A stretch of 35,142 nucleotides of DNA, taken from contig JAOXYB010018406.1 of assembly GCA_028565635.1 (NCBI GenBank), positions 1-35,142 of the forward strand. Direction: 5' to 3'. Below, piece by piece: positions 2,053 to 28,096 of this stretch (the first letter of the stretch is position 1; each line of letters begins with the position of its first letter). The stretch is from Phoronis ovalis. Its lineage: Eukaryota > Phoronida > Phoronidae. Position numbers and translations under genes: made by a program. A model generated the notes under the pieces. It saw only the letters and a list, made by a program, of their open reading frames with translations, searched no databases and was not told where the DNA came from.

Positions 2053-3780
2053 CCCTAAACCTTGTTTTTACAAATGCAGAGTTTATGGTTGACAATTTGA
2101 AAAGTGCAGCCCCACTTAGCAATGGCAACCATGCAGGAATATCTCAGGGACTCTCTTGGTGGTGTGTCTGCTGTTGTCCCACTAAAAAATCTGAGCCAAG
2201 AGACCATAACAGAAAAGATGATTATTATGACATGAATAACGATTTTGGAGAGATAAACTGCCTGAGAGCAACTGTTTAAAGGAAAGGACGTTCAGTGAAG
2301 GTTGGGATATTTTTCAGGCCAATAGCAAAGTGATTATAGAAACACATGTACACATCGTTAACAGCGGAAATGTAAAGTAAAGCCACACTGAATAAAAACC
2401 ATGAAAACTCGTGTTAAAATATTTTTAAAAGCCCAAAGCATTTTTATAATTACATCAGCAGCAAGCAGAAAGTGAAAGTATCTATATCGCCACTAGAGAA
2501 GATACAATGAAGATAGATGGTACAAAAACTGAAACAGAAAGTAATACCGCTGCTGATTTGAGAAACTTTTTTTAAACAAGTGAGATGACCACTCAGTACT
2601 AGAACTCTCCGACAGAGTTGCAGACTCAGAATCTATGAAAGATATCCAATTCACTATTCAGAATATGATGAAGAATCTATATGGACACACGGATCAGATA
2701 GTATCTACACCCAAAAATCTTCAAAAATGTACCACGATTAAGACCTGGGAATTATTGCCCAGTGAGTCTCACTTCGCAAGTATGCAAAATTTTTGAATAA
2801 ATCGTGAACATGTTGATGATAATAATATTAGCACGAAAGACCAGCATGGATTTGTAATGGGTCGGTCGTGCATGCTTGACAAATCTTCTTGAAACTCTTG
2901 TAGGGGCATTTGATGAAGGATATTGTATAGACATCGCGTGTCCAGGCCTTCAGAAGACGTTTGATAGTATGCCTCATAAAAGATTGCTTGCCAACCACTA
3001 CAGTTATGGAATACGCGGAAAATCATTAAAACATATGGACGCCACAGTTCTAACAAGTTCTCCTAAATGGACATGCTTGGACATACATCTTAGTGGGATG
3101 ATGTTGTTAGTGGAGTTCCACAATGGCCTATTGTGCATCGCTGTTATTAATGCAGAAGACATAATTAAGTGCATGAGATTTTCAAAGATGTTTGCGAAGC
3201 ACCTGGAACCCTGCAGCCGAACCTGAAAAAAATTAGATAAGTGGTCAGAAAAGTGGCTGCATGCTCCAGTTTAATGCCAGTGTATTTAAAATAATGCACT
3301 TAGGCCTCGACAGCCGTGAAATAAAAATATATTTAAATATAGTGACCGCTACTCTCTTGTCATATTTTGTGTAAAACATGTTAGACCTTGAGTATTGTGT
3401 CCAAGCCTTGGGCTCCCTATCTAAGACATTCTAGAATTGAAAAGGTACAACACAGAGCAACAAAACTGATCAGCAGTCTGCAGTATCTGAGGCATGAACA
3501 GAGGTTGGAAGAACTAAATTTGTACTTTATGACTAAAAGAAGAGAGCGTGGCAACATGACAGAGAAAATTTTGAAAGGAAAATTGACGCTATACAACATT
3601 GTTTAGATATTCAGAACTGTCATGCATATACTAGAGGACATTGTAATTGTACATGTAGCTGTACAAACACCAGTCAGCCGACCAGTCAAGATCACAGCTT
3701 AGAAACTTCTTTAGTCAGAGAATTATTAATGACTGGAATGTATTGACTAGACCCGAGAATCAAACACCCAGTTTGTAAGC
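2053..3780 (+). pseudogene. Decayed CR1-like non-LTR retrotransposon, ORF2 remnant (endonuclease end, reverse transcriptase, C-terminus)
   Basis: Conserved blocks of the CR1/L2-type second ORF occur in order but in several frames. At about 2054-2140 the end of the endonuclease reads TLNLVFTNAEFMVDNL then SAAPL. At about 2400-2510 the linker reads KSPKHFYNYISSKQK. At about 2745-2790 reverse transcriptase begins with GNYCPVSLTSQVCKIFE. At about 2835-2890 follows a GFVMGRSC-like block with LTNLLETLV. At 2925-3005 comes QKTFDSMPHKRLL with YGIRGKSL. At 3095-3120 the SGVPQ motif appears. At about 3240-3310 are WSEKW and the FNAS...MHLG block. At 3395-3610 is the C-terminal region (LEYC, EKVQHRATKLI, RHEQRLEELNL). 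At about 3720-3770 is VINDWNVL. Stops and frameshifts separate these blocks and the 5' part of ORF2 is missing, so it cannot be active. It ends about 340 bp past the stop codon of the minus-strand secreted gene. Confidence 0.85.
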
Positions 3781-4118: not shown

Positions 4119-7100
4119 CTATGCTGTAACTTGGCAATACCCCGGTACATAATGTCCAGTCTCGTCAAACATGGATTCTTTTGAATCGAATCTTTGGTCT
4201 AAAGAACATTTATAGCCATCTGGACAACCACATGGGAAACTAAACCCATTAACATTTTCTTCATCTTTGTCATCGAGCATGTATTGCTTAAAACAGGGAT
4301 CTTCTTTATCCTGAACCTTACACTGGGGCTGAAAACAAATAAATAAACTAAACTAGTATAAAATTAAATAAATGACCCTCGTGTGAAACCCAATAACACT
4401 AGTACAAATATCTAATAAATTAAACGGATTTAGAACAAGGTTACAATGAGAATCATCGAACCAAGCTGCCATAACTGTACGTTAGGACCTCAATACTTGC
4501 GCAACGACCGTGACAAACCATAAGGTTCAGATAAGTCCAAAATTTATATTACTAATTCAAAATAGAAAGGCTTCAGTAGAATATCCTTACAAATTAAAAA
4601 TTTATTGAAATATAAGCCTGTTAAAACTGATTTTTATCCTCAAAGAAGAATACATTTATGACATTGATGAAATATAGCCGTACATTTATTCTCCAAAAGA
4701 AAACACCCTATCCTTCCTTGACTAGAAGCTAAATTTAAAAAAAAAAAATTTATCAAAGTACTAGCGATATCTTAAATATAAATATCTAAGAATTCGTGCA
4801 CTCAATGACCCGTACAGGTGTAATCTTTGAAAACCCCACGGAATGTAATAGTATGCTAAATTGAAAAAAATACAAGCCTCATTAACAGAACCTTATTTAT
4901 CCAAATATAGCTATTTGTTTATGCATAGCGCTTATATACTTTTTTTACACACATTTCTACAAGTGAAAGGCACTGTCAAGCTGTATATCTTATTACCGTT
5001 TGCAACGAAGTGCCATCCTGTGGTAAAGTGATATTTCGTTTGTGACGTACGTTGCATATAATAAGTTGCATTAGTTATGCAGCCAAGGATTACCGTTTGA
5101 ACAGCAGCAGGAATATTCAAATTTTAGAACGCGAACGCTTTCTGGTGAGATGACAGTGATGTAGAGATTAAATTTTAACAAAGATTCCCGCTGTGGTTCA
5201 AGTTAATGTGTTATTAATACCTTCATTTGTTACAAAATGCGAAATACCACTACACTACAGGGTCGCACTTCGTTGTAAACAGTAGCAATAGACTTAGCTG
5301 TAAGATTAATTAAATTGACCTACAGACAAGTAAATCCATTTATCCGATTTATTATAAAGTGAATTTAATTAAAAGAATAAGCAATTTGTTTCCTCGTTCA
5401 TGTACTTACAATTTCTACTATGATAAATATTATTAAATATTATTTTCACATTTTCAAGAACATTAATTGCGTTGCCTTAAACAAAGCTGATCCATACGGA
5501 TACTGCATTGTGTAATATTGGTTTGTCTCAAAACCAGTGAGATGAAGAGACGACAAACTTTTTGCTTTTTTAATTATTAAATTTTGCATTAACCTGTTGG
5601 CATCCATACAAATATTCCCATCTTCCACTGCGTTTCCACCAACTCAACAAATAATGGATGTTGCCAGGGCAGTGACACTTAGAGTCAGAAATTATAGGCT
5701 TCCATTCGTTTATTCCTGTGGTGACTTTTATGACGTCATTATCCGTTTCACTGCATTCTTTATCAGAGATGACCTTACCACACAAACGATACTGGACTAT
5801 GAAGTCCCCTGAAATTACCAACAATTTGGTTTGATGCGCCATCTACAGCCACTCGTTAAGGGTTATCGAATTGTTTTCATCTGTCACGTATCGGGTCACG
5901 AAAATAAGATTTGTAAATAATATGATAAGCTATGGCAGAGAGTTATATTTTTGTAAAAATTGAATTAGATTTAAAAAAAAAAAAATTCAATATATGGAAA
6001 GAAAGATCAATTCCACTAATTTAATTTATCTGTCTAACGTATTTCTAATTTCATTTTGACCGAGTTTTGAAAATTTTAATTTTCGTAGAATGTATAAAAA
6101 TCGTTTAGAATGCATGAGCTGGCTAAGTCTAAGAAAACAAATCGCTTAGAGACGTGTCCGGGGACGTGTAATACCGCGTGTACTCTTTGGAGTTGAATGA
6201 TTGATAAATATAAAATACGATGCGTTCTAGCAGTCATACAATATAGATTTGGTCGATTTTTCATTTTAATTCATTAACTGTAGTAGAACATGGTTACCTA
6301 ACTACGAGAAATGCTTATATTTCTAGCTTATCAAATTGAAACCCCAATCACAGGGCCCCAATCCAACAAACTTTTGTGATTGATAATTCACAATAATTAA
6401 AATTCGATTACGAAAGTGAAACTCATAAAAAATTACGCTTAAATTTGTAGCGCTCTAATACACTTAAATAACTTTTTACAAACTAGTACCCAGCAATTTT
6501 GGTAAACTGGTAAATTGTGTCATAAATACGAGGTACAGAACATTGTGGACATAGACAAATTTTAGCTAAGGGAATATTCTAAGTTTCTGTTTTGATATAG
6601 CTTGTCGAGCCATGCCAGTTTTATACAATAATTATATTTGAACTTAATTTTACTCGTACTTCTACATCTATTTTTTTTAAATTATAAAGCACTCACGTCT
6701 TTCTTGATGGTACCACGTCAGAGATTGCAAATCAGTCCCGTCCGTCCATGTCCGTGTACACCCTGCGCATTTGCAAAGTTGGCCCTGGTCAACGGGGTCC
6801 TCCTCATCATCATATTTGAAAAGACTTGCACAAACGCTCTTTTTGGTAGTACATGGTTGATTTTCGTCCTATAAAAAGCAATTGCAGTAAGCACGATCTA
6901 ATCTCTTTCTGTGGGGATTGTGTCCCTAATATGCATTTACTTCAAATTACAAGAAATTTACTTGTGTGCTTGATGAGGAATCGATGATTATTAAAAATTG
7001 CATATTGCTGCATGTGTCGGTTTAAATAAAATTCCTTTATAAAAAGCTAATTTTGATTCATTTTTAAAGCGATACGTGGATATTACCTCTTGTATCTGCA

Positions 7101-7317
7101 ATAAGCGTGCAATAATTTTATATTAAAGATGGCTTTACAGCCTTCTATTCCATTCTGTGTAGAAGCGGAAAGGGTTTATAGACTTGATACATATTTCAGA
7201 TTTTTATACAAAATCACTGCATTCTTTGCTTTCAAACATACTTACTGCGTCATCTTTTGCAAAAAGAACAGGAAAAATAATAGCGACAAGTGGCACTGCT
7301 ATGATAAACACCTTCAT
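4119..7317 (-). CDS. Secreted three-module cysteine-rich protein, family not recognised
   Basis: Four coding exons join in frame on the minus strand: 7317-7246, 6868-6697, 5808-5594 and 4328-4119. All have GT donors and AG acceptors, with junction phases 0, 1 and 0, giving 222 residues and a TAG stop. Exon 1 is a typical signal peptide (MKVFIIAVPLVAIIFPVLFA, then KDDA), so the product should enter the secretory pathway. Each later exon carries one related cysteine module built as C-x6/8-C, a gap of 18-25 residues rich in D/E, then a C-x-C pair. Exon 2 adds C-x2-C after the pair (KCAGC), exon 3 one late cysteine (YGC), and exon 4 two (CGCPDGYKC and PGYCQ). In total there are 16 cysteines, an even number that allows eight disulfides. 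Introns are 377, 888 and 1265 bp. The CxC-x5-C core of exon 4 faintly recalls colipase/prokineticin-type folds, but this is a weak guess. A matrix, immune or signalling role is possible; none can be assigned. No single exon forms a long open frame, so the gene is easy to miss. Confidence 0.8.
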
Positions 7318-9139
7318 GATATTGAACTTGTCTCAAAACAAAATGATGCTATTATTAAGTCCGAAACCTTGGCACGCAGTTGTCTGTTCGCGAGTAAATC
7401 GATGTAAAACTAAGTTTCCGCTTTAAACCACCATACAGAAGCGCAGATAAACCAAAAAATCCTCAAGGGAATTAAAGTATTACTCAATTACATTGCAAGT
7501 CACTCCGACGAAAGCCTTAGCATGTGACCAGCAGGAATAATGTCTCAGTCTACTAGTTTAATTTTCACGAAGAAAATGTAGAATCCCCGTTGTACGTGTG
7601 AACACTCTTGGTGACAAGAGGAATATTATAGCAGGTGACTATAGTTTACGGCAATATTTCTTCAAACAGTAGCTTTTTGTCTAGTTTATAGATCGCAAAT
7701 GAATATAATGAGTTAATTCTTATGAGTTTAATTATTGCTTCTTATTATTGAGACCATCTGCGTCTTTAAGGCTCAAAACACTTAGGGTTTTACTGTACAT
7801 GCAAATCAGATTTTACTTCATTAATGTTTAAAACAATTATGGAAAATTAGAAGCTGACTCACAGACTAAGTACAAAATTGATCACCAGTGGCTTACTTTT
7901 TAATTATAAGAGAAAACGTTTGGGGGCCTCATTTTAACATAGTATGAGACGAGAAATAACAGCATGAAAATCAACCATACCCAATCATATTGTTTTCTTC
8001 TTTGACACTTATAATAAAAAAAAGGTATTTAAACATGTCATCGTATTATTGTAACACGGTTTCGTGGTTCTACGTTATTTTTTCTGATGAATACACCATG
8101 TTAACTTGATATGTAAATATCTACACTTTACGTCAAGTTTTTCCTTGTTCGTCTTGTTTACACTATTATATATACGTATGTACATTTATATTTTGTGATA
8201 ATTTATACGTTTGCATAATACAATGTATTTTCATCAACTTGGTAGCGGAAATAAATATGCATACACTTAATTACTAGTAAAAAAAGAATTTTTGAAAAAG
8301 CTTATCTACTGGGAATTTTTTTCTTTGATGTTAATTAGTCCTGAATAATGAAAAATAAGTGCTGTAAGTTCCTTGCTATTTAAGGACTTGCATTAATGAC
8401 TTTTTAATTCCAACTATTAAATTGTTACATTCACATATTTTTATGTAAATAAAATTAAAAATGATAAGAATAATGCAACTATATATTTTGCTAATGTCAC
8501 ATAAATGTCTACAAGTTATTTTTAAAAATGCTTTCATGCCACAATTGAATGGAACTGTATATGTATTGGTTGTAGTGTAGTTTCTTGCATCTGAGATATA
8601 TATGAGAATATTTAAAGATCGTTAATGTTCGTTATAGTTAGCACTAAGTACAATTGCAGTAAATGTCATTATCATTTCCCCCCGCATTTTCCCTCACGGT
8701 AGAAACAGTAATCGATTAAACTTTATCGAAAGAAAAGGTCCTTGCAAGTGTCACAAAAACGTTTAATACAAACTGTCAAAAATTATAACCATCACATAAC
8801 TTACTTTTAGAGCATTCTATTTCTTTCACACACATCAGTATCTATCGGTATTTTAAGTTATAGGCCCGGTGCGGGTTTTAATATTGGCAGAAGACCGGCC
8901 GGGACTCGAGGGGAAAAGATTTGCAAGTGTTATTAGTTTTTGCTACAACTATGAATAATATTCAGATTCTAATCATGTTATATACCTCAACAAACTTCTT
9001 AACAAATTACCGGGACAAATAATAACAATAATAAAAGAAATAATAATTTATTATAAACTTCATAATACCATCAAGTAAAAAAACTGATTAAAGCTATCCA
9101 ATCAGAAACCATGCTTATTAAATATAATCTCAAACCCAT
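7318..9139. other. Divergent intergenic region
   Basis: This region separates the start codons of two genes transcribed away from each other. It is AT-rich with a few poly-A/T runs and no convincing exons. A GC-rich island at about 8862-8910 contains CCCGGTGCGGG and CCGGCCGGG. On the minus strand it reads CTCGAGTCCCGG, resembling a tRNA-type B box, so it may be a SINE scrap; this is weak. Confidence 0.5.
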
Positions 9140-9257: not shown

Positions 9258-12200
9258 ATGTCTGACGACGAACAGGTACGTTAATTTCATTATAGAATAT
9301 TACAAAGGTGGGCACTTGTCACAAAATTAGTTCATACAATATATGTGGTCTTCACATAGACTAATGCACACACTTTGGTGATCAAAGTTTAAACAGGCCT
9401 CTTCAATTTACTGCGTGCATATTCCGCCGGGATATACTCCAAACGTTGGAACATATTTTGGGACACGTCACGTGTCTTTAATATTTTAACCATAATAAGT
9501 AAAGTGTAATTTCCTAAGTAATCTGTGTACAAAGTTTAGAATTTCATTTTTTCATTTAAGAGAGAGTACAACAGTATTATAAACAATTTTGAAACTAGAT
9601 ATGTAAGCCATTACCCATTATATGTAAGGTACATGTACATTTTAACATTCTTTGTTTATTTTATGTACCAATCAATAATCATTCACTATATAAAGAAATT
9701 GGTATCAGATCAGTTTAATCACTTGTGGTCAGTCCTATACCATCTCTTTATATTAGTTCAATGCTTATAAAATCTATATGGAGTTTGTGTTCAGTTAATT
9801 TCAATATAAAGTTAAAATGGATATTTTAAACAAGGTTTTTAACTCCTAAGATCATTTTTCAATTTGTTGTAAAAAAGCGTGCTCAGAAAAGTTAAAATGG
9901 CACAGAGGTGATTTAATTTGAAAATGTATATTTTTTGCATTATTGAACTATTGGATTTTTGAATGAAAAAAATATATATACCGTTTGACTTTCATACCAC
10001 AATAATACATTTGCTTACCAGGAGAATTATGATTCAATTCATAAATCAGGAGGTAATATAATTCATAAATCAGGAGGTAATATAATTCATAAATAAGTTT
10101 AGCTAAAATTGCCTTAACTTGTTATATCATATATAAAAATGTGAAGACAGTTTATTTATAGATGAATGTAGTTATCACACTAGTTTATGCATATAAAACT
10201 TATTATTTCAATTGGTTATTACATATTTTAGTTAGAATAACTGATTTGTGACTTAAAATTATAAATATCATTATATACAGCAAAATAAGCTTACAATTTA
10301 GTTTATAATGTAAAAAAATCTTATTCACTGTAGAAAGTTAATATGCTTGTATTTTAGTCTTTATTTGGATGTGTTGTATGTCAGTATGTACTTTAACACT
10401 ATAAATAAGAAGTTAGAATTGTTTGAAGTTAGGATTTAATTTAATTCAGACAATATACAGTGAGCAACTGTAGCTTAAACAAGTGAAAGCTGTATGATGA
10501 TTTTTATTGGGATCATCTTGGGTCTTTCTTATGAAATAGGATAATCACACTGTATTGTTTTAAAATTAACTTTTCTAATTTGCAAATGGCTTCACCGATA
10601 GATAACACATGATCACAAACTCATGAAAGAGTCAGACGTTATGATCTTTTTATTTTTAGTTTTACTGCCAGTAGACAGATTCTTTGATAATACAATAATG
10701 CGTTTTGAAGGAATATTTTGTTAGTTATATGTTTCCTCTCCAAAATATTTCTCAGTACATTTATACATTTGGAGATACGGACATCGAAATGAGAGAAAAA
10801 TGGTTGCCCCAAAACTCTTATCAAACGTATCTGTGATCACATGTTACATACCTGTGGGCTTGTTATTGAGAAAAAAGTCCCTCCCATTTAATTCTAGATG
10901 AAAAATTAATGATTATATTTTCAGTTGTTATTCACCCATATGTAAACCCCTCTGAAGTATTAGATTGGCCTATAAAAGTAGTCAATTGGGAGCTATTAAG
11001 CAATGTATCGAAATGTCACTGATTAACAGTTTAATCAGTCATTAAAATGTGTCTTATAATAATTATGTCATTCATCTTACTGATGAAATATTAATTCTAT
11101 CTAAACCAGTGCAATAACATGCATCATGAAACTTTTTTTGTCATATTTATCCATAATTTCTATACATTTACCTTGACACAATGAATAAATAAACACTTAG
11201 TAACAAAAAACTAACAGAAATTGCTTATCATACAGAGTGAACATTTTGGTTGTAAAATCCTGACGCTGCAAATACTGCTAACTTTGGATTTAAAAGGCAC
11301 ATTCAAAATGTATTATATGGTATACTGAAAATAGAACATGCAAATAGGGAAAAAGCTGCATAAAGTAAAGCTCTACATAATAACAGGCTATAGAGCATTA
11401 TACTTTGACAGGATCAGTGATATTTTTTTTCTTGTAGAAACAGACTGACGAACAGAAAGAAGAAGAACAGCAGGATCAAAACTCGGACAATAACAAAGAT
11501 GGTATGTAGTGAATTTTATCTTTTTTAGAGTATTGTCAATTTACGTATCATTCTCAGTTTTACTACAAACTAATTTACTTGACAACACACACATCAAATG
11601 TATACAAATAATGGCTCTAAGTTGTGAATACGAATTCAACAGATATTAAAATTAGCACATTTTAATTTTAAAGTAACTATAATAGTACATGTACATTTTT
11701 CGGCACAAAATTCATTTTCTATAATTTATGTACAAGCAGAAAATAGCTTTTAACCTATGGTTATCATAATATATAGTTTTTGTTGGTATGTATTCTCTTA
11801 ACATTTATTTCCTTTATTGTTTGTTTTATTTATACTGTGGGCCACTGGCCTCTATTACTATAAAATAAACATGATATTTTTTAAAATGCTATATTTTAAA
11901 CACATTTATGCACTTACAATAATCCAAAAGCAGAACGTGTATTCAACATAAAAAGAAATTCAGTACATTCTCTATCTGCATAACGTGACTGATATCAAAA
12001 TTAACACCAGAAATAGATACACATGCATGTGATGTTTAGATTTTTTTTACACAGGCACACCACAATTCTGAGCACTTTGCACAAAACATTTGCATGTAGT
12101 AATTATATACCAGCTTGGGCTATGGCATGTCAGATATTCTGTGTATGTAATTCAACGCATGTAAGGTATGTACCGTTCAGGGGTTTACTAAGTCTTTTCT

Positions 12201-15200
12201 CCCTCTTGCACCATCACAACCTCCTTTAAAAATGTATAGCATGCTATGTGAATCATGCAGTAATTTAAAATTTTCTACAAGCACTATGAATTCAAAACTA
12301 AAACGCATCCCGAGTATACTGTTTGTTCCAGAAATTCATCACAATTAAAACACAGTGATCTTCATAACCTTTAGAGTATAATTAAGGCTTATATGTTGAT
12401 CTGTTGACTTTACATCCAGAAGAAGCCGAAATAAGTTTGAAAAATATACTATAGTAAATAACATTGATATATTCGACGGAGAACAAACAATTTATGCATA
12501 ATAGAGATGATGTAACTCAGCTTACGAAGAACAATCTTTTCGACAAAAAAATACTAGTATATCAGAGACAATAAATCTATTGAAGGCTTTCAATTAAAAC
12601 TACGTTTTAAATATCAGGAGATACTGTGCATCTAGTGGGGAGAAACAAGTCCGAACAACCTACAAGCATGAACTTATTAGACCTACATGCTAGTAAAAAT
12701 GAAAACATAAAACAAACATTGCTGGTAAAGGAAGTTGAACAATCAGTTGATGATTTAATGAACTATTCAGAAACACAAGAAAACACTTCAAAGATGTGGT
12801 CAACAAATACAAGCGCTGCCAACCGCACCAAAAAATATCAAGACAAACAAGAAATCCAGAATACTAGTAAAATTTCAGATAATACTGATACTAAGGACAA
12901 TGCCACAAAAACAGAGATAGATATTGAAGCTACAAAAGAAGTATTAGATAACGAAATTACAGAAGTATCTCCAAAAAATGGTAACAAAGAAGTTAATGCC
13001 ATTGTGCCACGATCAAAGAATGAAAAGATATGTACACAACAAGACGATGCCACAGAGAAACCTTTAGACGATACTGACACACAAGATAATGCTACAGATA
13101 CACCACTAGACAATACTGAAACACAAGACAATACCACAGATGCACCATTAGACAATACTGGCACACAAAACAATACTACAGATTCACCATTAGGCAATAC
13201 TGGCACACANNNNNNNNNNNNNNNNNNNNNNNNNNNNNNNNNNNNNNNNNNNNNNNNNNNNNNNNNNNNNNNNNNNNNNNNNNNNNNNNNNNNNNNNNNN
13301 NNNNNNNNNAGACAATACTACAGATACACCATTAGGCAATACTGGCACACAAGACAATACTACAGATACACCATTAGACAATACTGTCACACAAGACAAT
13401 ACTACAGATACACCATTAGGCAATACTGGCACACAAGACAATACTACAGATACACCATTAGGCAATACTGGCACACAAGACAATACTACAGATACACCAT
13501 TAGACAATACTGGCACACAAGACAATACTACAGATACACCATTAGACAATACTGGCACACAAGAAGACAATACCACAGATACACCATTAGACAATACTGG
13601 CACACAAGACAACACTACAGATACACCATTAGACAATACTGGCACACAAGACCATACTACAGATACACCATTAGGCAATACTGACACACAAGACAATACT
13701 ACAGATACACCATTAGACAATACTGGCACACAAGACAATACCACAAATAAATCATCAGACAGTACTGATACACAAGATATTCCTACAGCTAAACTATCAG
13801 ACAATACTGACATGCAAGACAATGCCACAGAAAAACCATGTGAAAATACTGACACACAAGATAACAATACAGATAAACCATCAGACCGTACCGACACACA
13901 AGATAATACCACAAATAAACAATCGGACAGTACTGACACACAAGACATATCTACAGCTAAATCGTCAGACAATACCAACACACAAGATAAAGCTACAGAT
14001 ACACCACTAGACAATACTGAAATACAAGCCAATGCCACAGATAAACCAGGCAATACTGGCACCCAAGACAATCCTACAAATAAACTATCAGACAGTACTG
14101 ACTCACAAAACATTACTACAACTAAACCATCATACAATCCTGACACACAGGACGATGCCATAGAAAAATCACATGAAAATACTCACCCACAAGACAATGA
14201 CACAGATAAACCATTACGGAATATTGGTATACATAATGTCGCAGATAACCAATCTGACAGTATTGATACACAAGTCGTTTCTACAGCTAAACCATCAGAA
14301 CACATCAGTACACATGACAATGCTACAAACCGAACTGACAATATTGACAGACAAGATAATGCCACAGAGAACAACACATCAGACAGTACTGACACAAATG
14401 AACCACCAGACAATACTGAAACACAAGATAATACCACAGGTAAAGCATCAGGCAATATCGACACACAAGACAATGCCACAGATAAACCATCAGACAATAC
14501 TAACACACAAAACAATCCTACAGCACAACAATCAAACAATACAGACAATATTGACACACAACACAATGATACAGATAAATTATCAGGGAATACTGGCACA
14601 CAATTAGACAACGTCACAGATGAGCAATCAGACAGTACTGACACACAAGAAATTTCTACAGCTAAACTGTCAGACAATACTGACACACAAGATAATGCTA
14701 CAGACACACCACTAGGCAATACTGAAATACAAGACAATGCCACAGATAAACAATCAGGCAATATTAGCACCCAAGACAATACCACAAATAAACCATCAGA
14801 CAGTGACACACAAGATATTCCTACAGCTGAACTATCAGACAATACTGACATGCAAGACAATGCTATAGAAAAAACAGATGAAAATACTGACACACAAGAC
14901 AATGCCACAGATAAACCATCACGGAATATTGGCAAACAAAATGTCGCAGATAAACAATCAGACAGTACTGACACACAAGGCATTCCTACAGCTAAATCAT
15001 CAGACAACATCAATACACAGGACAATGCCATAAATCAAATTGACAATATTGACACAGACAATGCCACAGAGAACATATCCAACAGTACTGACATAAATGA
15101 ACCACCAGACAATACTGAAGTACAAGATAATGCCACAGGTACAGCATCAGGCATTATCGACAACCAAGAAAATGCCACGGATAAACCATCAGACAATGCT

Positions 15201-18200
15201 GACAAACAAATCAATCCTACAGCTAAACCAACAAACAATATGGACAATATTGACACACAACACAATGATAAACTATCAGGGAAAACTGGCACACAATTAG
15301 ACAATGTCCCAGATAAACTATCAGACAGTAGTGACACACAAGGCATTTCTACAGCTAAACCATCAGACAATAGTATCAGACAAAATAATGATATAGATAC
15401 ACCACTAGACAATACTGAAACACAAGACAATACCACAGATACACCATCAGACAACAAGGACACTGGAGACAATACCATGTATAAACCATCAGATAATAAT
15501 GCTACACAAGACAATCCCACAGGTAAACTAAATAATGCAGACAATAATGACACACAACAGAATGATACAGCTAAAACACTAGACAGTACAGACAGAAATA
15601 CTGGCACACAATGCAGTGCCACAGAGACACCATCAGACAATACCAATACACAAGAAAATGCCACAGACAAAACACCGGACAGCACTGAAGTACGAGACAA
15701 TGACACAGATAAACCAACAAACAATACTGCCATACAAGACAATCTTACAGATATACTATCCCTCAATACTGACACACAGGACACTGACACAGAACAACCA
15801 CCAGACAGTACTGAAACACAAGATAATGGCATGGAAAAACCATCAGACAATACTGGCACACAAGATAATGGCAAAGATAAACAAACAGACAACACTGACT
15901 TACAAGCCAATGTTACAGATAAAACACCAGACAGCATTGACACAAAAGATAGTGCCACAGATAAATCATCAGGCAATATTAACACACATGGCCATGCCAG
16001 AGACACACAAGACAACACCACAGATAAACTATCACCCACCAACGATACACAAGACAATGTCTCAGCTACAGCATCAGCCAATATTGACACTGAAGACAAC
16101 ACTACGGACAAACCATTAAACAATAATGAAACACAAAACAATGCCACAGATAAACAAACAGACAATACTAATATACACCACAGTGATACAGATAAAATAC
16201 TGGGCAATATTGAAATACAAGACAATGCCACAGATAAATCACCAGACAATACAGAAACAGAAGATAATGTCACAGATAAAGCATCACGCAATACTGGCAC
16301 GCAAGACAATACCATAGATAAACCATCACTAGACAATACTGCATCACAAGACAATGTCACAGATAAAGCATCAGGTAATACTGGCACACAAGAAAATGCT
16401 AAAGATAAACCATCAAACAATATTGACACACAAGACAATGCCACAGAACAATCACCACACTATACCAAAAAACAAGATGCCATATGTAAACCATCAGAAA
16501 ATAGTGGCACAAAAGACAATGGCACAGATAGACCAACAGATAACACTGACACACAATACAATGATACAGATAAAACACCTACCAATGCAACAGGTAAACC
16601 ATCAGACAATACTGGCACACAAAACATTGGCACAGGTAACACATTAGACAATACCAACACAAATAAACCATTAAACAAAACTGATACAAAAAGCAATGTC
16701 AGAGATAAACTATCAAACAATACTGACAATGCTACAAGTGGAACAGCAGGCAACACTGGTATACAGGACTCTGTCACAGATAAACCATCAGCCAATACTG
16801 ACACACAAGACAAAGCCTCAGATGAACCACCGTACAACACTGACACACACAAAACACCCGAAGCAGCTAAAGCACTAGAAAATACTGATACACAAGATAC
16901 TGCCATAGATAAACCATCAGACAATACTAACACACAACACAATGGCACAGATAAACCATCAGACAATATTGGCACAAAAGACAATGGTACAGATATGCAA
17001 ACAGACAACACTGACACGCAAGATGATGCCATGGATAAGCCATCAGACAATAACACAGATAAACCATTAAACAACACTGATACAAGGAGCAATGTCACAG
17101 ATAAACCATCGGGCAATACCGACACACAAGGCAATGCTTCAGATAAACCACCAGACAACACTGACATACAAGACACTGTTACAGATAAACCACCAGAAAA
17201 TATTGACATGCAAGATGATACTACAGATAAACCATCTGGCACACAAAACAATGCCACAGATAAAGCATCACACAGCACTGACGCACAAGACAAATCCACA
17301 GATAATCCACCAAACAGTACTTATAGACAAGACCGTGCCACATCAGGCAATACTGACATACAGTATAATGCTACAGAAAAACAATCAGACAAAACTAAGA
17401 CACAATGCAAAGCCTCTGATAAAACATTACACAATATTGACACACAAGACAATGCCATAGATGAAATATCAGACAATACTGACTCACAAGTCAATATGAC
17501 AGATAATCCTTCAGACAATACTGACACACAAGACAATTTTACTGGCAAACCGTCAGAAAGCATTAATAAAGTAGATGATGTCCCAGATGCTCCATCAGAC
17601 AAGACTGACCGACAAGATGATAATACAGACAAACCGCCAGACAACACAGATACACAGAATAGTGCTTCAGATAAATCTTCAGAAAGTACTGACATACAAG
17701 ACAATCCAACAGATAAACCATCAGACAATATAGACACACAAGACAATGTTATAGATAAACAATCAGACAGTACAGACACACCAGATACTACCAATACACA
17801 AGATAATACTGCAGATACATTATCAGATAATGTCCCAGAAAAACCAATAGACAAAACCCAAGAAAACAATAATGTTTCAGATAAGCCATTACAAAACATT
17901 GGTGTAAGAGATAAAGTTACGATATCAGAAAAGAATGAAAAGCAAAACAGCTCAGACACAGAATCAGAAAATTCCACTACACAATACAAAAGTTCAAAAC
18001 AGGCATCATCACACAATACTGACAGAACAACAAAAAGTTCCGCAAATAATCATGTAATAATTACAAAAACAGGCTTGAAAGTGAAGCCAAAACCAAATTT
18101 AGAATCAAAACCAGCAGAAAAGAGCACAATAAGTAAAACCAATGATACAAAGTTTAAAAACCAAACTGTTAAAACTTGTAAACCTGATGATGCAAAAGCA

Positions 18201-21200
18201 AGCAAGAGCAGAAAGACAAACGATAATCCATCAGAGAAATCTGATAACCAAAAAGGTACTCCAATGCAACGGTGGGCACAACCGTTGAGAAAACAACAGG
18301 AACTAATATCAAGCACAACATTGATACAAAGATCAAGTGCACCTGCTAGCAAAGGTCGTTTATTACATCGACGTGATAGTATCAAAAATGATGGTGGCAT
18401 GTCGAAGCAGTATTCCAAGTCTGCTAGAAATGAACACAAAGGTACAAACTTTATATCTTATAAGTTAATTCACTATTGATCAGCAGACAGACACTTCACT
18501 ATGGATTGATATTGGGTGTTGTGATACAGTAAAATAAAACAGAAAGGTACTCTTGTAGATATGGATAAAATCATAGTTTCTTAACATCTCTGATTGCATG
18601 AACTTTGATATAAAGTACAAAACATTCACTAATGTGTGTCATCAGCAAATTACATCTGTACGTGAATCTCTTCATGACTTTTCCAGAATAACTGTGATGC
18701 ACCATATAAAATTCTTTGTTCAATAATTTCTACACTTTATTCCTCGATGACGAAGCAACTATAATTCTGTAGGAAGTGACTTGGTGAGTGCATGTATATA
18801 TATACAAGTAAAGCAGAAAGCAACGCAACGGTATACTAAAATACCATTGTCAAATGATCCAGACTATTAAGCCCTAGCTGACATGTAATTTCAATCTGTC
18901 TCACATATGTACTATATTTCAAAATCACCCACACAATGTTATTCAGTTTCTCTTTATACAGACTGACTAGTTAATTATTATGCTATGCCTTACTCTAACC
19001 CAACATTAAACTTGTAGTCATCTGATATAGTTTTCAAACGTCCGTGCAGTAGATATTATTGAAAGCACAGTATTGGCATCTAAGACTATAACAGGAACTG
19101 CAACTGTTTCATTAGCAAACATTTTAAAAGTTGTAATTAAAATGAAGAGATACTGCATACTTATTTATTTAGGTAAATCCAGGGTTAATATTTTATTTAA
19201 CTTTTAAAATCGTTGAAGATATTTCACTGCCATTAAAATATAACTCAAGACCTAAGGTAGCATTAAAAGTAATAGAGTAATTAACACGAATTCTTGAGAA
19301 GCCTCCACATTTAAGAGAATATAAAATGTACAATTTTATTAATCATTTTAGCATAGAGATATTGTAATTTAATACTTTGTACTTTAAATTATTTCAAGAC
19401 TATTAATTTTCTGTAAATTCATTCAAAATCATTACACTACTGTATCCCAACGGGGGCAACATGCCCGAGGGTTTAAAATCAGTGGCTGGTACACGTGTTT
19501 GTAACACAATAAGGGTTGCATTTTTCAATTAAAAATATACAAAAGGGCATCTTTACTACACAATGGAAACCTAGGTAAGTTCACTTACTAGAGTGCTTAC
19601 AGCTGTATTATAGGTATATAATCAATTGCAGTGAAAATGGTTAAAAAACATTCTCAATGCTATTAGGGTATAAAAAATGTTCTCAACGCACTTAAGGTAT
19701 CTAAAATTTCTTTCAGTGAAAACGGGTCAAATTTTAAAAATGGGAAAACGTGTATGGGGCCTTTTTCAAAAACCCATTCACAAACATGGGTACCAGTAGG
19801 CCCATTCACACTTACCACAGAGCGCTTCATAATAGAGAACTCTATAATAAAGCACTTGAGCCTCTAATGTGTACGCAAATAAATCGCTTCTAGCAAAAAT
19901 TAATCCTCCTCCTGAGGTGGATTAACTTTTTCCTGAAGTGCTTTATAAAAGTTTTAGCGACTTAACTTCCAAGTGTGGACACGAAGCGACTTCAATTCGC
20001 TTTCTGCATATATATATATAAAAAGTGAATAACCAAATTTGAGGGGGTAGGGGGTACCCCCCAAGGTACAATGCTCGCACTGAAAAATCGGCAATGCTCG
20101 CACTTAAGAAGAAAAGTTGACAACCAAAAAAAAAAAAAAACGGTTCCCAAAAAAAAAACGGTCGCCAAAAAACATCGACAACCAAAAAAAAAAAACGTCA
20201 AAACAAAATAGGTCACTAAACTTAAAGAAAACATCCAAAATAATGTTCGCCAAAGACAATGCTCGCACTTAACAGACCAAGGCAATGCTCGCTGCTCGCA
20301 CTTAACAGACCAAATGCTCGCTGCTCGAGATACCCCCCCTACAGCCCTCAAATTTACACATGTCCAACACACTAAACACCTCCTTGAACTAAAGAGCTCC
20401 GCATATCGGAAGCGCATCAATTGAAAGTAGAATAAAGCGCTTTGAGATATTTGAAGATAGAAGCGAATTAAAGCATGCCAGTGTGAATGGAAAGTGAAGC
20501 GCTCAAAGTGTAAGTGTGAATTGGGCTAGTAATTCCCTTGAGTCGGACACCAAGGCAACTTGCCCTCAAGCTATAAACATAAACAAATTGATTTTCTGTC
20601 AAACAAAGTATAAATAAGGTTACTTAGCCTTTTTGAGGCATTACCCTACATACATTATACAGAGTCAGTTTTATAGCAAAATTAGTGTTTGGGTTTCATT
20701 TTTTAAACAATAAAAAGACTTTGCAGTGATCAAACGATATTTGATTTGTGTAACAGATGAAACTTAAAATTAACAGATATCTTCAGTTTATAAAGAAGTA
20801 AAAGTTTTTCAATAATCTTACTTTTGGTCTTGTTGTATATATCCATACCCCTTTTACAAAGGACACATAATTGTGTGCGCATACTGTGCTTTCAATAAAT
20901 AATATACCTTGTTGCTAGTTTTGCTTACTAACTATAGTATATCACACTCTCCAATGTCACCCTGAAATTCGGATGTTGTCTTTAACATTTTAGTGACAAA
21001 AAGGTTGAAACATTTTTTATTTGCAGGTATGATATATTACCTAACAGGATTCACAGTTTGGTAATTTTTAAATGTGCCTTTTTTAGAAAAGTTTTTGTTT
21101 CACAAATCACCGTTATAATTCTCCATTGCCAACAATAAGCATTTGAAATCGGTCAACATGGACAAGTACAATTGAGATCACACTGCTCATCTGAATGTCA

Positions 21201-24200
21201 CCTATATCTATCTCTTCTGTCATTGATTTATATATACATGGCCCGAGAATTGCTCTATAGGAAACTAATAATGGGGATTTGCAAAATAGGAATTTTTCTA
21301 AAAAACAGGACATTCATTTGAAATCCTGTTAGGTACTATATTACTCATGCTGATAAAAATGTTTTTAAAAAAATATCAGGCTAATATGAGAAACTGGGAT
21401 ATGCTTCACCACCCCATATACAGCACCTTGGATTAGTATCCAGAGTAAGTGAACAAGTTCAACATTTTAAAAATTATTTTTAAAAAGTTGGTCCTGTTGA
21501 ATTTATTTAAAATTTTACAATATCTTTATTTCTCTGGGACTCTTACGCATATTTTATTTTCTGTTTAAATCATAGACAACAAGACAGACGATGATAAGAA
21601 AGAAGAAAAGCAACCAGGTATGCCACTGCTGTAATGTAAATATCATATAAAAAATCATACTACTTTAAAGTGTATTACAGTGTTGTGCATTTATATCTTA
21701 ACAACCAATTTAATTTGTGCTGGATACAATCATTCTAGTATTTCCTGTGTTTCATCCTGTGTCTGTTAACTATAATTGTTTTCTTACAATTCTGCTAGAT
21801 TTCAAATGATTGTAGATTCTGACTCAATCTCCTTGCAATTAAAATCTGTCACAAAAATTCAAATTGTTCACTTGAAAACCTCCCTCCTTTACTATTTGTA
21901 CTGACAACCATACCTCTTCTATACTACTTACCTTCCCTTCCTTTTCGGTGTTTTCCTTCTGCAATACAGCTAAGATATCTGGTTGGTCTACAGCAAAAAC
22001 CAAAGACACAGAAGAAGAAATGGAGAAAGAAGACAAGAAGAAGCAGTACTTTACAGAAGAATTAAAACGATTGCAAACAAGTCTCAAGAAAGAAGCTTCC
22101 AAAATCAAAGCACCAGAACCGTAAGTAATACGCCTAGCTCACCTCACTTCATCTCATACAAGTGGCAAACAATAAATATGACAACAGCGTATAAGGGTAT
22201 CAATAAATTAGGCTAATTTTAAAAAACGGAAGCAACTGACTGACAAATTAACAGGACACAACTGAATTATTCCTGCTGAAGTATATCATAGATTTTTCAA
22301 ACATTAATGTTACACGCAAAATGTTACTGTTCCTAATGTAGGCAATATTTCTGTTTTATTCACACTATAGCCAAACAAGGCAATACAGGCATAATGTTAT
22401 TTAAAAAAATGTACTTTTATATTTTAATTATTGTACTTGCTTATTTTACAGGAAACAACACACTCCTTACATTTTTAATACATTAGAGCCTTACTACAAC
22501 ACCAAGACGGCCACATTTATCATTGAACAGGTACAGTTTAATTCTCCGCAATATATTTCTTGAAATTTGCTTCTTGTATAATAATTTTATCATTAATTTT
22601 TGTTCGCATCATCTTTATTTTGTCACAAACCGCTAATTTGCTTAGTTGTAGTTTTATGTTCATCAAAACAATTGCACGACTTTGGTTAGTGAATTCCTTA
22701 AAAGGTGCATTCAGGGGAAGTAAACATATGTATGCATGCTTACAGATGGATTTCCTCTTTGTATAGTCTTTCTTGGATAAAAATTAAAAGTTACATATTT
22801 GTTTTATTCTAGCCTGAAGAGGTAAGACATTCATTAAGCAGATACACATCTATTGGTTTGTACAGAAGATTTTACAATTAGGGCAACAGTAATTTCCAGT
22901 ATTGGAAACAAACCAGCAATTTCATTTATAGCTGGTTGCGATCTATCATATTATAACCAGCTATAATTGAAATTGCCATGTTTTGTTTCCTATGCTATCC
23001 AAAACAGTTACTGTGAAAAGGAACAGAATGTCGTCAATTGGTGTATCAGTTTCACCTAGAGGTATCGGAGGTAAACTAAAGGCTCAACTGGTTTGGCCAT
23101 GGACATTTGTATGAAAGCAAACAGAACATGTTTTTCCACCCGTTTTGCAGTGCATTAGTGAATGGCTGGATATGGCCAGACCAAAAAGAAATCTTGTTTA
23201 ACGGGCGCAAAAATTTCAAATTGGCATTTTCACTTTTTTTAATAAACCTTGTTTAACGGTTGCGATCACTTTCACCTATTAAACACTTAAAAAAATAAAC
23301 TTTAGCCCTACCTACTCAGTTTTTGAGGGGTTTCACCCATTAAACAACATAATTTTTTGGAGTGGCCTAATGGTAGATTTTATTCACTGTTTCTTTATGT
23401 TTTAGCCAGAAGAAAAAAAACATTCATTTGTTAGTAGACAAACAGCTATTGGCTTGTGTGATCCATGGACAGACCACAGGATGGATGTGGAATTTCTTCC
23501 GAGAACTGAAAGCAAACCACAACCAAAATTCAAGCAACAAGGGTAAGCTTTGACTGTGTTTGCTTCAACTTTTTTATTATCTTTTGACATTTCTGAGATC
23601 CAAAATGCTATACGTACAAATATTTGTGAGAACTATGCTTTAGAAACAGGAGCAGTAACAAATGACATAATGCTGACAAGTAGTTGATGTAGTGACATTT
23701 ATTCCCTTTCTGTAATTCGCAGTTTGAGAAAAGCTGATGGTAAAAAGCATGAGGGCAGTACAAGACTTCCTAAATATCCGGAAGTTAAGATGGAAACTCA
23801 AGAGCTTGCAACCAAAACATTGTACTACAATGATGTTCCAAAACTGAGGTATAATGACAACAATTTGCACTGCTTTTGTTCAAGGTTTGAACATTCTAGC
23901 AGATATAACTACGTACTTTAAAACCTATTACTTATTTACCTTTATAACAGCAGAGCAAAAAGTAAACTTATCAATATGCTTTATCAGTAATGAGCTTCAA
24001 AGAGGTACAGTACATTTTCTTTCCCATGAAACATTTGAGAGAATCTGTAGTATTTTGTTCATTGCTATGGTACTCTTAAATTACTTTTTTTTATTTTAAA
24101 GAAATGCCAATCGTTTTGTTTTTTAGGCAAGAATTGCGAGAAAAGTACCACACGAGTGCCCAGGGCAAAATTGATGCCGACTACAAGAGAACCAAGGATG

Positions 24201-24361
24201 ATTTTTATCGTATGGATTTAGACAAAATGGAAGAAGTTCACCCACTTAACAGGGACAACATGAAAGCAGCTTATTTCGCTTATTTACAAAATACTCCCGG
24301 CTCTAAAAAAGCAGTGAGTGAATGTGTCAAAGGTTTAAAAGCATCAGATTCACCAAGATAA
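9258..24361 (+). CDS. Nine-exon gene with a giant 14-residue-repeat exon; function unknown, possibly ciliary
   Basis: Exons: 9258-9275, 11438-11501, 12618-18441, 21576-21617, 21970-22120, 22452-22530, 23406-23542, 23723-23848 and 24127-24361 (TAA). All have GT donors and AG acceptors, and phases agree. The start is MSDDEQ with no signal peptide, so the product should be intracellular. Exons 2 and 4 encode short acidic, K/E/D/Q-rich stretches. Exon 3 holds about 110 copies of an acidic unit near DNTDTQDNATDKPS, then a basic Lys/Arg/Ser-rich tail (about 17940-18441, with MQRWAQPLRKQ). Exons 5-9 form a conserved-looking C-terminal part: a K/E helix in exon 5, TPYIFNTLEPYYNTKTATF in exon 6, QTAIGLCDPWTDHRMDVEF in exon 7, and charged helical stretches in exon 9. 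Without exon 3 the frame is kept and the protein is 283 residues. That length is near vertebrate C2orf73-type proteins, an untested guess. The X-box suggests a cilium or sperm role. With exon 3, 2191 residues are visible plus the gap. Confidence 0.75.
9276..11437 (+). other. Intron 1 of the repeat-rich gene
   Basis: AT-rich intron (GTACGT donor, TTGTAG acceptor) containing the 24-bp tandem repeat at 10036-10095. I see no other coding or RNA feature; the 61-codon minus frame near 10639-10824 lacks support. Confidence 0.6.
10036..10095. repeat. 24-bp tandem repeat, 2.5 copies
   Basis: The unit begins AATTCATAAATCAGGAGG and repeats at 10036 and 10060, with a partial third copy at 10084. Copies look identical where they overlap. 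It is intronic with no clear role. Confidence 0.9.
11502..12617 (+). other. Intron 2 of the repeat-rich gene
   Basis: AT-rich intron from a GTATGT donor to an AG at 12616-12617. Open frames such as 12023-12229 have no splice or family support. Nothing else is seen. Confidence 0.6.
13210..13309. other. 100-N assembly gap inside the repeat array
   Basis: Exactly 100 Ns interrupt the array. The left flank stops at CA and the right flank starts at A then GAC, so directly joined they read CAA GAC, the normal unit. A true gap of 100 would shift the frame by one base. The 100 is therefore a placeholder, and the missing length is probably a multiple of 42 bp. Confidence 0.95.
14050..15440 (+). repeat. 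Higher-order repeat of about 700 bp within the array
   Basis: A block of about 16-17 units occurs twice in tandem. Landmarks are RNIG...NVAD at about 14217 and 14922 (offset 705) and DNIDTQHND...GTQLDN at about 14543 and 15243 (offset 700). The landmark order (TNK, IPTA or ISTA, RNIG, NVAD, NEPPDNTE, DNIDTQHND, GTQLDN) matches in both. A shorter partial copy of the start of the block is visible at about 13730-14040. The block boundaries are approximate. Confidence 0.75.
18442..19796 (+). other. First part of intron 3 of the repeat-rich gene
   Basis: Intron 3 runs from the GTACAA donor at 18442 to the AG at 21574-21575. This part is AT-rich with no supported exons. If the donor is not used, translation continues to a stop at 18477-18479, adding 12 codons. 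Confidence 0.6.
19797..20528. mobile_element. Outer TIR transposon (MITE-like) with TA target duplication
   Basis: The left end reads TAGGCCCATTCACACTTA, then GAGCGCTTCA. The right end, read on the minus strand, is TAGCCCAATTCACACTTA, then TTTGAGCGCTTCA. This gives imperfect terminal inverted repeats of about 33 bp flanked by TA (19797-19798 and 20527-20528), as in Tc1/mariner-type insertions. It has no transposase. The interior shares AAGCG/CGCTT motifs on both sides and is split by the element at 20035-20355. Confidence 0.75.
20035..20355 (+). mobile_element. Inner GCTCGCACTTAA element with TIRs, nested in the outer one
   Basis: The left end is AAATTTGAGGGGGTAGGGGG. The right end, on the minus strand, is AAATTTGAGGGCTGTAGGGG, giving an inverted repeat of about 24 bp. 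The interior carries four copies of a GCTCGCACT motif (three followed by TAA, and GCTCGCTGCTCG variants) and several poly-A runs followed by CGGT. A truncated inverted copy is at 1434-1532. The long minus-strand open frames here (about 19943-20420) come from the poly-A/T tracts and are not genes. No target-site duplication is evident. Confidence 0.7.
20529..21575 (+). other. Rest of intron 3 of the repeat-rich gene
   Basis: AT-rich with no supported exons or repeats. It ends at the ATAG acceptor before 21576. Confidence 0.6.
22813..22881 (+). pseudogene. Decayed duplicate of exon 7 of the repeat-rich gene
   Basis: After a TTTTATTCTAG acceptor-like sequence the frame reads PEEVRHSLSRYTSIGLYR and soon hits TAG (22879-22881). 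The true exon 7 at 23406 begins PEEKKHSFVSRQTAIGLCDP. The two share the PEE start, HS, SR, T-x-IGL and the acceptor position, so this is a partial tandem copy. Similarity ends near 22866, just before the palindrome at 22886. Alternatively, CCTGAAGAG followed by GTAAGA could act as a 9-bp in-frame microexon (PEE); I think this less likely. Confidence 0.6.
22886..23014. repeat. Near-perfect palindrome (foldback or MITE)
   Basis: The arms at 22904-22937 and 22955-22990 pair almost perfectly: GGAAACAAACCAGCAATTTC against a copy with AACATGGCAATTTC, both ending TATAGCTGGTT. Weaker pairing extends out to ACAGTAA at 22886 and AGTTACTGT at 23006-23014. The loop is about 17 bp. It sits in intron 6 directly after the decayed exon copy. 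Confidence 0.8.

Positions 24362-25224: not shown

Positions 25225-28096
<2,872 letters not shown>

Follow-up and report, generated by a model that had tools for sequence, protein, structure and literature searches.

The giant exon of ankyrin-G gives rise to a disordered product of some 2000 residues or more. This exon, ANK3 exon 37, is described as alternative, and its neuronal inclusion as yielding the 480 kDa form of the protein (PMC12713133). The account of Big tau in PMC12896622 likewise presents an optional large exon, exon 4a of MAPT, which adds a highly acidic, disordered and sequence-divergent projecting domain. More generally, Homma et al. 2025 describe long internal exons as rich in tandem repeats and disorder, with mostly frame-keeping indels (PMC12457776). 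Here we describe a gene of the phoronid Phoronis ovalis, found in a stretch of 35,142 nucleotides (GenBank assembly GCA_028565635.1, contig JAOXYB010018406.1; hereafter the window), in which a giant third exon dominated by acidic 14-residue repeats interrupts the coding sequence of a short, conserved protein.

We think it reasonably probable that this one gene carries exon 3 as an optional cassette and that its product has a spacer role. Optional giant-exon spacers are already known; what stands out here is the size, the new 14-mer and the recurrence of a charge order on an unknown protein family. The likeness to Big tau lies in a symmetrical exon that would place an acidic, probably disordered and sequence-divergent insert on a short protein. 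The insert of Big tau has ~250 residues and a conserved length, whereas length is not conserved here, with at least 1900 residues in P. ovalis and 435–991 in the molluscs compared. Unlike tau, the core of this protein matches no Pfam family, and filament or microtubule binding, drawn from the analogy, is putative; compared with ankyrin-G, too, the core is without any Pfam domain. We know of no tandem 14-mer like that of exon 3 in ankyrin. The trend of Homma et al. 2025 is presented as a genome-wide one in eight eukaryotes, whereas exon 3 is also probably optional and keeps a charge order.

A giant symmetrical exon within a compact gene

The gene occupies 9258–24361 of the + strand and has nine exons, of which the third is the giant one:

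9258..9275, +, exon 1: start codon, MSDDEQ; donor CAG/gtacgt
11438..11501, +, exon 2: acidic and Q-rich; phase 1 at its end
12618..18441, +, exon 3: giant cassette, phase 1 at either end; 1906 whole codons or more, interrupted by an assembly gap
12618..13033, +, 5' part of exon 3, mostly non-repeat; its end is the first call of the tandem array
13034..13209, +, first 42-base tandem units, upstream of the gap
13210..13309, no strand, assembly gap of 100 N
13311..17810, +, about 105 acidic 14-residue units, consensus DNTDTQDNATDKPS; first 1500 residues past the gap
17811..18441, +, basic tail closing exon 3: 210 residues, net charge +16
21576..21617, +, exon 4: 42 bases, phase 1/phase 1
21970..22120, +, exon 5: the conserved core begins (YFTEELKRL)
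22452..22530, +, exon 6: core motif TPYIFNTLEPYYNT
23406..23542, +, exon 7: carries SRQTAIGLCDPW of the core
23723..23848, +, exon 8: core motif GSTRLPKYP
24127..24361, +, exon 9: two motifs of the core, DYKRTKDDFYRM and YFAYLQNTPGSKKA, and the stop codon

The initial annotation, made from the letters of the window, had called exon 3 as a symmetrical cassette of more than 1908 codons, and the exon stands as real, with phase 1 at both ends: the frame is open from 12620 up to the gap (196 codons) and again over 13311–18440 (1710 codons), which together with the two split junction codons gives 1908. Past the gap, the other two frames of the exon contain 207 and 46 stops. Spliced together, exons 1, 2 and 4–9 form a stop-free frame of exactly 283 residues. 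The exon 2/exon 4 junction formed without exon 3 is in frame, so the claim that skipping keeps the frame holds as well. As assembled, exon 3 has 5824 bases, or 1 mod 3, and the open frames on either side of the gap therefore join only if the true gap at 13210–13309 is 2 mod 3, as it presumably is; the 100 N are presumably nominal.

Both splice sites of exon 3 (acceptor aatatcag/GAGA, donor AAG/gtacaa) look usable. This would suit a gene that always includes exon 3 in P. ovalis, or that owes its short form to a second promoter, with no exon skipping, as would the fact that many annotated molluscan forms are long. The acceptor of exon 3, however, is the poorest in pyrimidines of the gene (9/17, against 11–13 in the seven other acceptors), and evidence from relatives given below adds to the case against constant inclusion or a second promoter, a reading that we consider unlikely. 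Within exon 3, hidden splice sites are not fewer to a degree clearly beyond codon shuffles (GTRAK 5 times against 9.3 ± 2.8), and acceptor-like sites, 0 against 1.2 ± 1.4 in the shuffles, are not clearly depleted. For an optional cassette, the support from splicing within the window is circumstantial, consisting of frame symmetry and the pyrimidine-poor acceptor; it is the relatives that make a cassette likely.

Short and long forms in relatives

A protein search with the 283-residue protein as query, which could return only proteins of 156–495 residues, found 68 relatives. From their names we take these to include molluscs, a nemertean, an annelid, a brachiopod, a bryozoan, echinoderms and a hemichordate. 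Forty-two of the 68 short-range matches sit on contigs no longer than 3150 bases (lgn, jgi and ena sources), as would be expected of spliced transcripts; short forms on contigs of transcript size argue against a gene that always includes its long exon.

Long forms were sought with the core placed at the end of longer queries. A query of 906 residues returned 26 long forms of 513–1297 residues, with mollusc names throughout, and one of 2191 residues returned three matches, two of them already known and one new, a protein of Batillaria (2025 residues, marked partial). Each of the resulting 27 long forms is a single protein that has a long N-terminal region and the same core. The presence or absence of the exon 3 region in orthologues had been proposed as a check on the cassette: 26 of these 27 molluscan proteins, all those scored, carry a charged insert, and the short forms compared below lack it.

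The long forms also bear on whether exon 3 terminates a separate or truncated transcript, coding for a repeat protein without the core. There is an in-frame stop at 18477–18479, just past the exon 3 donor, with AATAAA at 18533, and in-frame ATGs occur at 12668, 12758 and 12794, downstream of a stop at 12608. Nevertheless, such regions are joined to the core in one protein in all 27 relatives, and AATAAA would be common in DNA this AT-rich; we regard a separate transcript as very improbable. The same annotated relatives argue against two separate genes, the arrangement that the initial annotation had set against its own proposal.

Comparison of short with long proteins points to insertion at a single place. 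In the oyster Magallana gigas, from which both forms are available, P0030 (286 residues) and P0080 (818 residues) share a prefix of 39 and a suffix of 248 residues, and differ by one block of 532 extra residues. Between P0020, which is very like Mytilus, and Mytilus P0073 there are 435 extra residues between identical flanks; the residues before the block are the same, and the first residues of the proteins differ. Comparisons between different species gave 559 extra residues at a single junction for the scallops Pecten (P0031) and Ylistrum (P0092), and 991 and 962 extra residues in Haliotis rufescens and H. asinina relative to Haliotis rubra P0001, where the short form has EF. In the oyster, mussel and Pecten/Ylistrum pairs the residue that precedes the insert is also the insert's last residue, which fits a split codon, without being proof of phase 1.

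These pairs therefore favour one gene with an optional cassette. The common N-terminus and single block between shared flanks in the oyster, together with the same residues before the block in the mussel-like pair, stand against constant inclusion or a second promoter. A short and a long product of what is probably a single gene are thus seen in relatives, as in the oyster pair; for P. ovalis we infer both inclusion and skipping of exon 3, along with the docking partner and spacer role discussed below.

The reading frame of exon 3 is maintained while its residues change

Past the gap, residues of exon 3 match themselves at a rate of 0.364 at a lag of 14, against 0.070, 0.080 and 0.082 at lags of 13, 15 and 16. 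When the first 1500 residues past the gap were aligned circularly, they resolved into ~105.5 units with 64% mean identity to the consensus DNTDTQDNATDKPS; threonine, aspartate and asparagine are the commonest residues. These 1500 residues have a net charge of -204 and the last 210 residues of the exon one of +16. The description of the insert as highly acidic with a basic tail is hence accurate, and this order is common to the molluscan long forms. Judged from its composition, the product of exon 3 is probably disordered. Among the best candidates scored across 77 megabases of DNA, all core and repeat matches fall in this gene.

As a rough yardstick of neutral change, we mutated the codon consensus at rates taken from the same array. 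No stops occur in the repeats, where the simulation gave a mean of 28.6 and a minimum of 15 (500 runs; 1477 aligned codons). In a DNA alignment of the first 4500 bases past the gap, 31 of 38 indels have a length divisible by 3, and the remaining 7 fall in three clusters, each totalling a multiple of 3. Non-consensus residues, by contrast, are as numerous as in the neutral simulation (535 observed, 545 ± 18 simulated). Zero stops, frame-keeping indels and residue change at the neutral level together mean that the frame is kept and the order of residues is nearly free: the reading frame of exon 3 is maintained and its residues are almost free to change.

Charge order recurs in long relatives, and repeats differ

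Charge was scored in 28 of 29 rows of at least 480 residues (P0088 was left out; P0028 and P0065 lie outside the 27 long forms); isoforms of a single gene account for several rows, and the independent cases are fewer. An acidic body is present in 28/28, and the last 120 residues before the core are positive in 27/28, the exception being P0089 at 0.0. Restricted to the 27 long forms, 26 of which were scored, the figures are 26/26 for the acidic body and 25/26 for the basic end. Two proteins illustrate this: P0069 of Haliotis rufescens ("spore wall protein 2-like"), 64% identical to the window protein over a core region of 217 residues, and P0080 of Magallana gigas ("Halomucin") both have the same core, an acidic body and a basic end, and by eye their inserted regions are unrelated in sequence to exon 3. 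Both names probably derive from low-complexity look-alikes. A literature search on six locus names of relatives and on "nucleolar protein dao-5" with oyster, the only names under which the family was searched, returned nothing.

The repeats of relatives differ or are weak. Nineteen of the 27 long forms were tested, of which 12 scored above every one of 40 shuffles. In 6 of the 19, 17 or more of 28 residues match at the best lag, compared with 28/28 in the window protein. The best lags are 37 residues (three oyster rows), 30 (Mytilus edulis), 25 (Mizuhopecten) and 36 (Batillaria). Because the three oyster rows are one gene or close kin, the six repeat-bearing rows amount to four independent cases. 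The 14-mer is probably a lineage-specific expansion within an older cassette.

Such repeats could have grown by slippage within a tolerant disordered linker, with no function beyond being translatable. Residue replacement at the simulated neutral frequency is what this predicts, the repeats of relatives are unrelated and far from universal, and long internal exons are described as tending towards repeats and disorder (PMC12457776). What neutral filler does not readily explain is the recurrence of an acidic body and a basic end in the sampled molluscan lineages, which makes it unlikely that the region as such is pure filler. We consider this explanation quite unlikely for the cassette as a whole; for the repeat sequence as such it may well hold.

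The tails of relatives often carry the motif R-P-[RKQ]-T-[TS], which we found in 11 of 14 scanned, or 12 if R-A-K-T-S of P0092 is counted. By eye, P0080, P0044, P0046 and P0094 also show K-V-[TK]-F near the N-terminus or the start of the insert. We take this to resemble the PP1-docking site RVxF; it was not found in the tail of exon 3, the part of the exon that was scanned for it.

Points against an optional cassette

Several observations weigh against exon 3 being an optional cassette with a counterpart in the molluscan inserts. The assembly gap conceals the frame join of exon 3. Purifying selection by codon position was not found in the repeats: in the coding frame, differences at a lag of 14 residues affect 0.21, 0.29 and 0.25 of comparisons at codon positions 1, 2 and 3, and changes from the codon consensus number 228, 319 and 272, against 268, 276 and 275 in the simulation. 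Position 2 is thus the most variable and there is no third-position excess, so that this test gave nothing in favour of coding; support for coding came from stops and indels. Each of the 27 long forms is an annotated model, and none comes from lgn, jgi or ena, the sources of the 42 short matches on small contigs; P0076 and P0095 are partial. The searches with 906 and 2191 residues found no long form beyond the molluscs. A tree of 39 rows puts the window protein among those of Spiralia, with a weak placement next to Haliotis rubra (83/84) and outside any well-supported set, and leaves its phylum unfixed. The motif R-P-[RKQ]-T-[TS] was not found in the tail of exon 3, where there is a short S-A-P stretch; homology of the tails therefore rests on position, charge and that stretch. 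Lastly, Pecten P0031 has 15 residues where Mizuhopecten P0091 has 612, with no clean insertion, and the Pecten long models P0089 and P0090 begin with an N-terminus unlike that of the short P0031, so that in some cases a second promoter, and not exon skipping, may give both forms.

A proposed spacer on a conserved core

If exon 3 is an optional cassette, skipping it would give a protein of 283 residues, with a short acidic N-terminus and a conserved, mostly helical and non-globular core. Inclusion would place at least 1900 probably disordered residues between the two, arranged as a long acidic repeat body followed by a basic tail adjoining the core. The core may dock on a partner, possibly a filament, to which the basic tail would add electrostatic grip, and the acidic body would project as a spacer that acts by entropy and repulsion, a role also proposed for Big tau. 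Any such function of the cassette is suggested by analogy with Big tau and the giant ankyrin exon.

More tentatively, and with somewhat less than even confidence, we suggest that a length-tunable spacer is deeply conserved in molluscs and perhaps across wider Spiralia. Selection would hold the frame, the acidic-then-basic order and disorder, while length (435 to more than 1900 residues) and sequence turn over, and splicing would switch the core between bare and brush-coated states. If true, the family would offer a natural series of spacers that differ in length and sequence on one conserved core, and existing species would allow the separate effects of length, charge order and sequence within disordered regions to be tested. 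The initial annotation had thought such a spacer unusual, which is apt for the length of the exon and the 14-mer; having a region of this kind is not unusual, since many molluscs do.

The conserved core

The core points to a protein family, so far uncharacterised, in Spiralia and Ambulacraria; the database names of its long forms are probably misleading. Its motifs LEPYYNT, SR.TA.GL.DPW, GSTRLP and YLQNTPGS are present in the window protein, and an alignment of that protein with 54 of the 68 relatives has 20 invariant columns. The core of the window protein matched no Pfam family at E up to 1, tau and ankyrin domains included; over 55 family members there were 11 weak families, each in at most 3 members and none of them tau or ankyrin. 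In a structure library whose axoneme species were not checked, neither sequence nor profile searches gave a solved axonemal relative, and returned only the look-alikes RAP80, RFXANK and ApoL2. We rejected the RFXANK profile match (E 0.004 over 66 positions) as an ankyrin-repeat look-alike. DRC1, a dynein regulatory complex gene of the same window (+ strand, from 28422 onwards; PF14772 at 1.6e-34), does match DRC1 chains in this library.

An AlphaFold2 model of the short form of Haliotis rubra shows helices and no compact fold, with a predicted local distance difference test score of 67.7 and a predicted template modelling score of 0.29. A fold search with the core model gave a best E of 6.5, which is meaningless. 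The model suits, weakly, a core that would be shaped by a partner. The suggestion that the protein is ciliary found no backing in Pfam families, axonemal relatives or fold matches, and has one hint in its favour, the neighbouring DRC1.

Other features of the gene and the window

A microexon of 9 bases at 22813–22821 fits the frame of the gene; we left it out of the model, as by eye it and the sequence behind it resemble a degenerate copy of the beginning of exon 7. The stretch 22813–22866, which lies beside an acceptor, reads PEEVRHS-LSRYTSIGLYR, similar to the beginning of exon 7 (PEEKKHSFVSRQTAIGLCD), and has by eye the look of a duplicate exon in decay. Near the corresponding place the bivalve isoforms P0080, P0083, P0084 and P0087 have, by eye, differing short inserts. 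An extra exon in intron 3 with a motif like the molluscan RPRTT was also rejected: the sole match is in a frame with nearby stops on both sides.

Between this gene and DRC1, head to head with the latter, lies a ribosomal protein gene of the Pfam L5 family (25865–27714, - strand), which we take to be RPL11. Upstream, 6695–7320 (- strand) appears to hold a small gene whose N-terminus is hydrophobic and signal-like; one of its exons contains cysteine and had no Pfam match. A broken stretch at 2690–3000 resembles, by eye, reverse transcriptase and is a candidate remnant of a non-long-terminal-repeat element.

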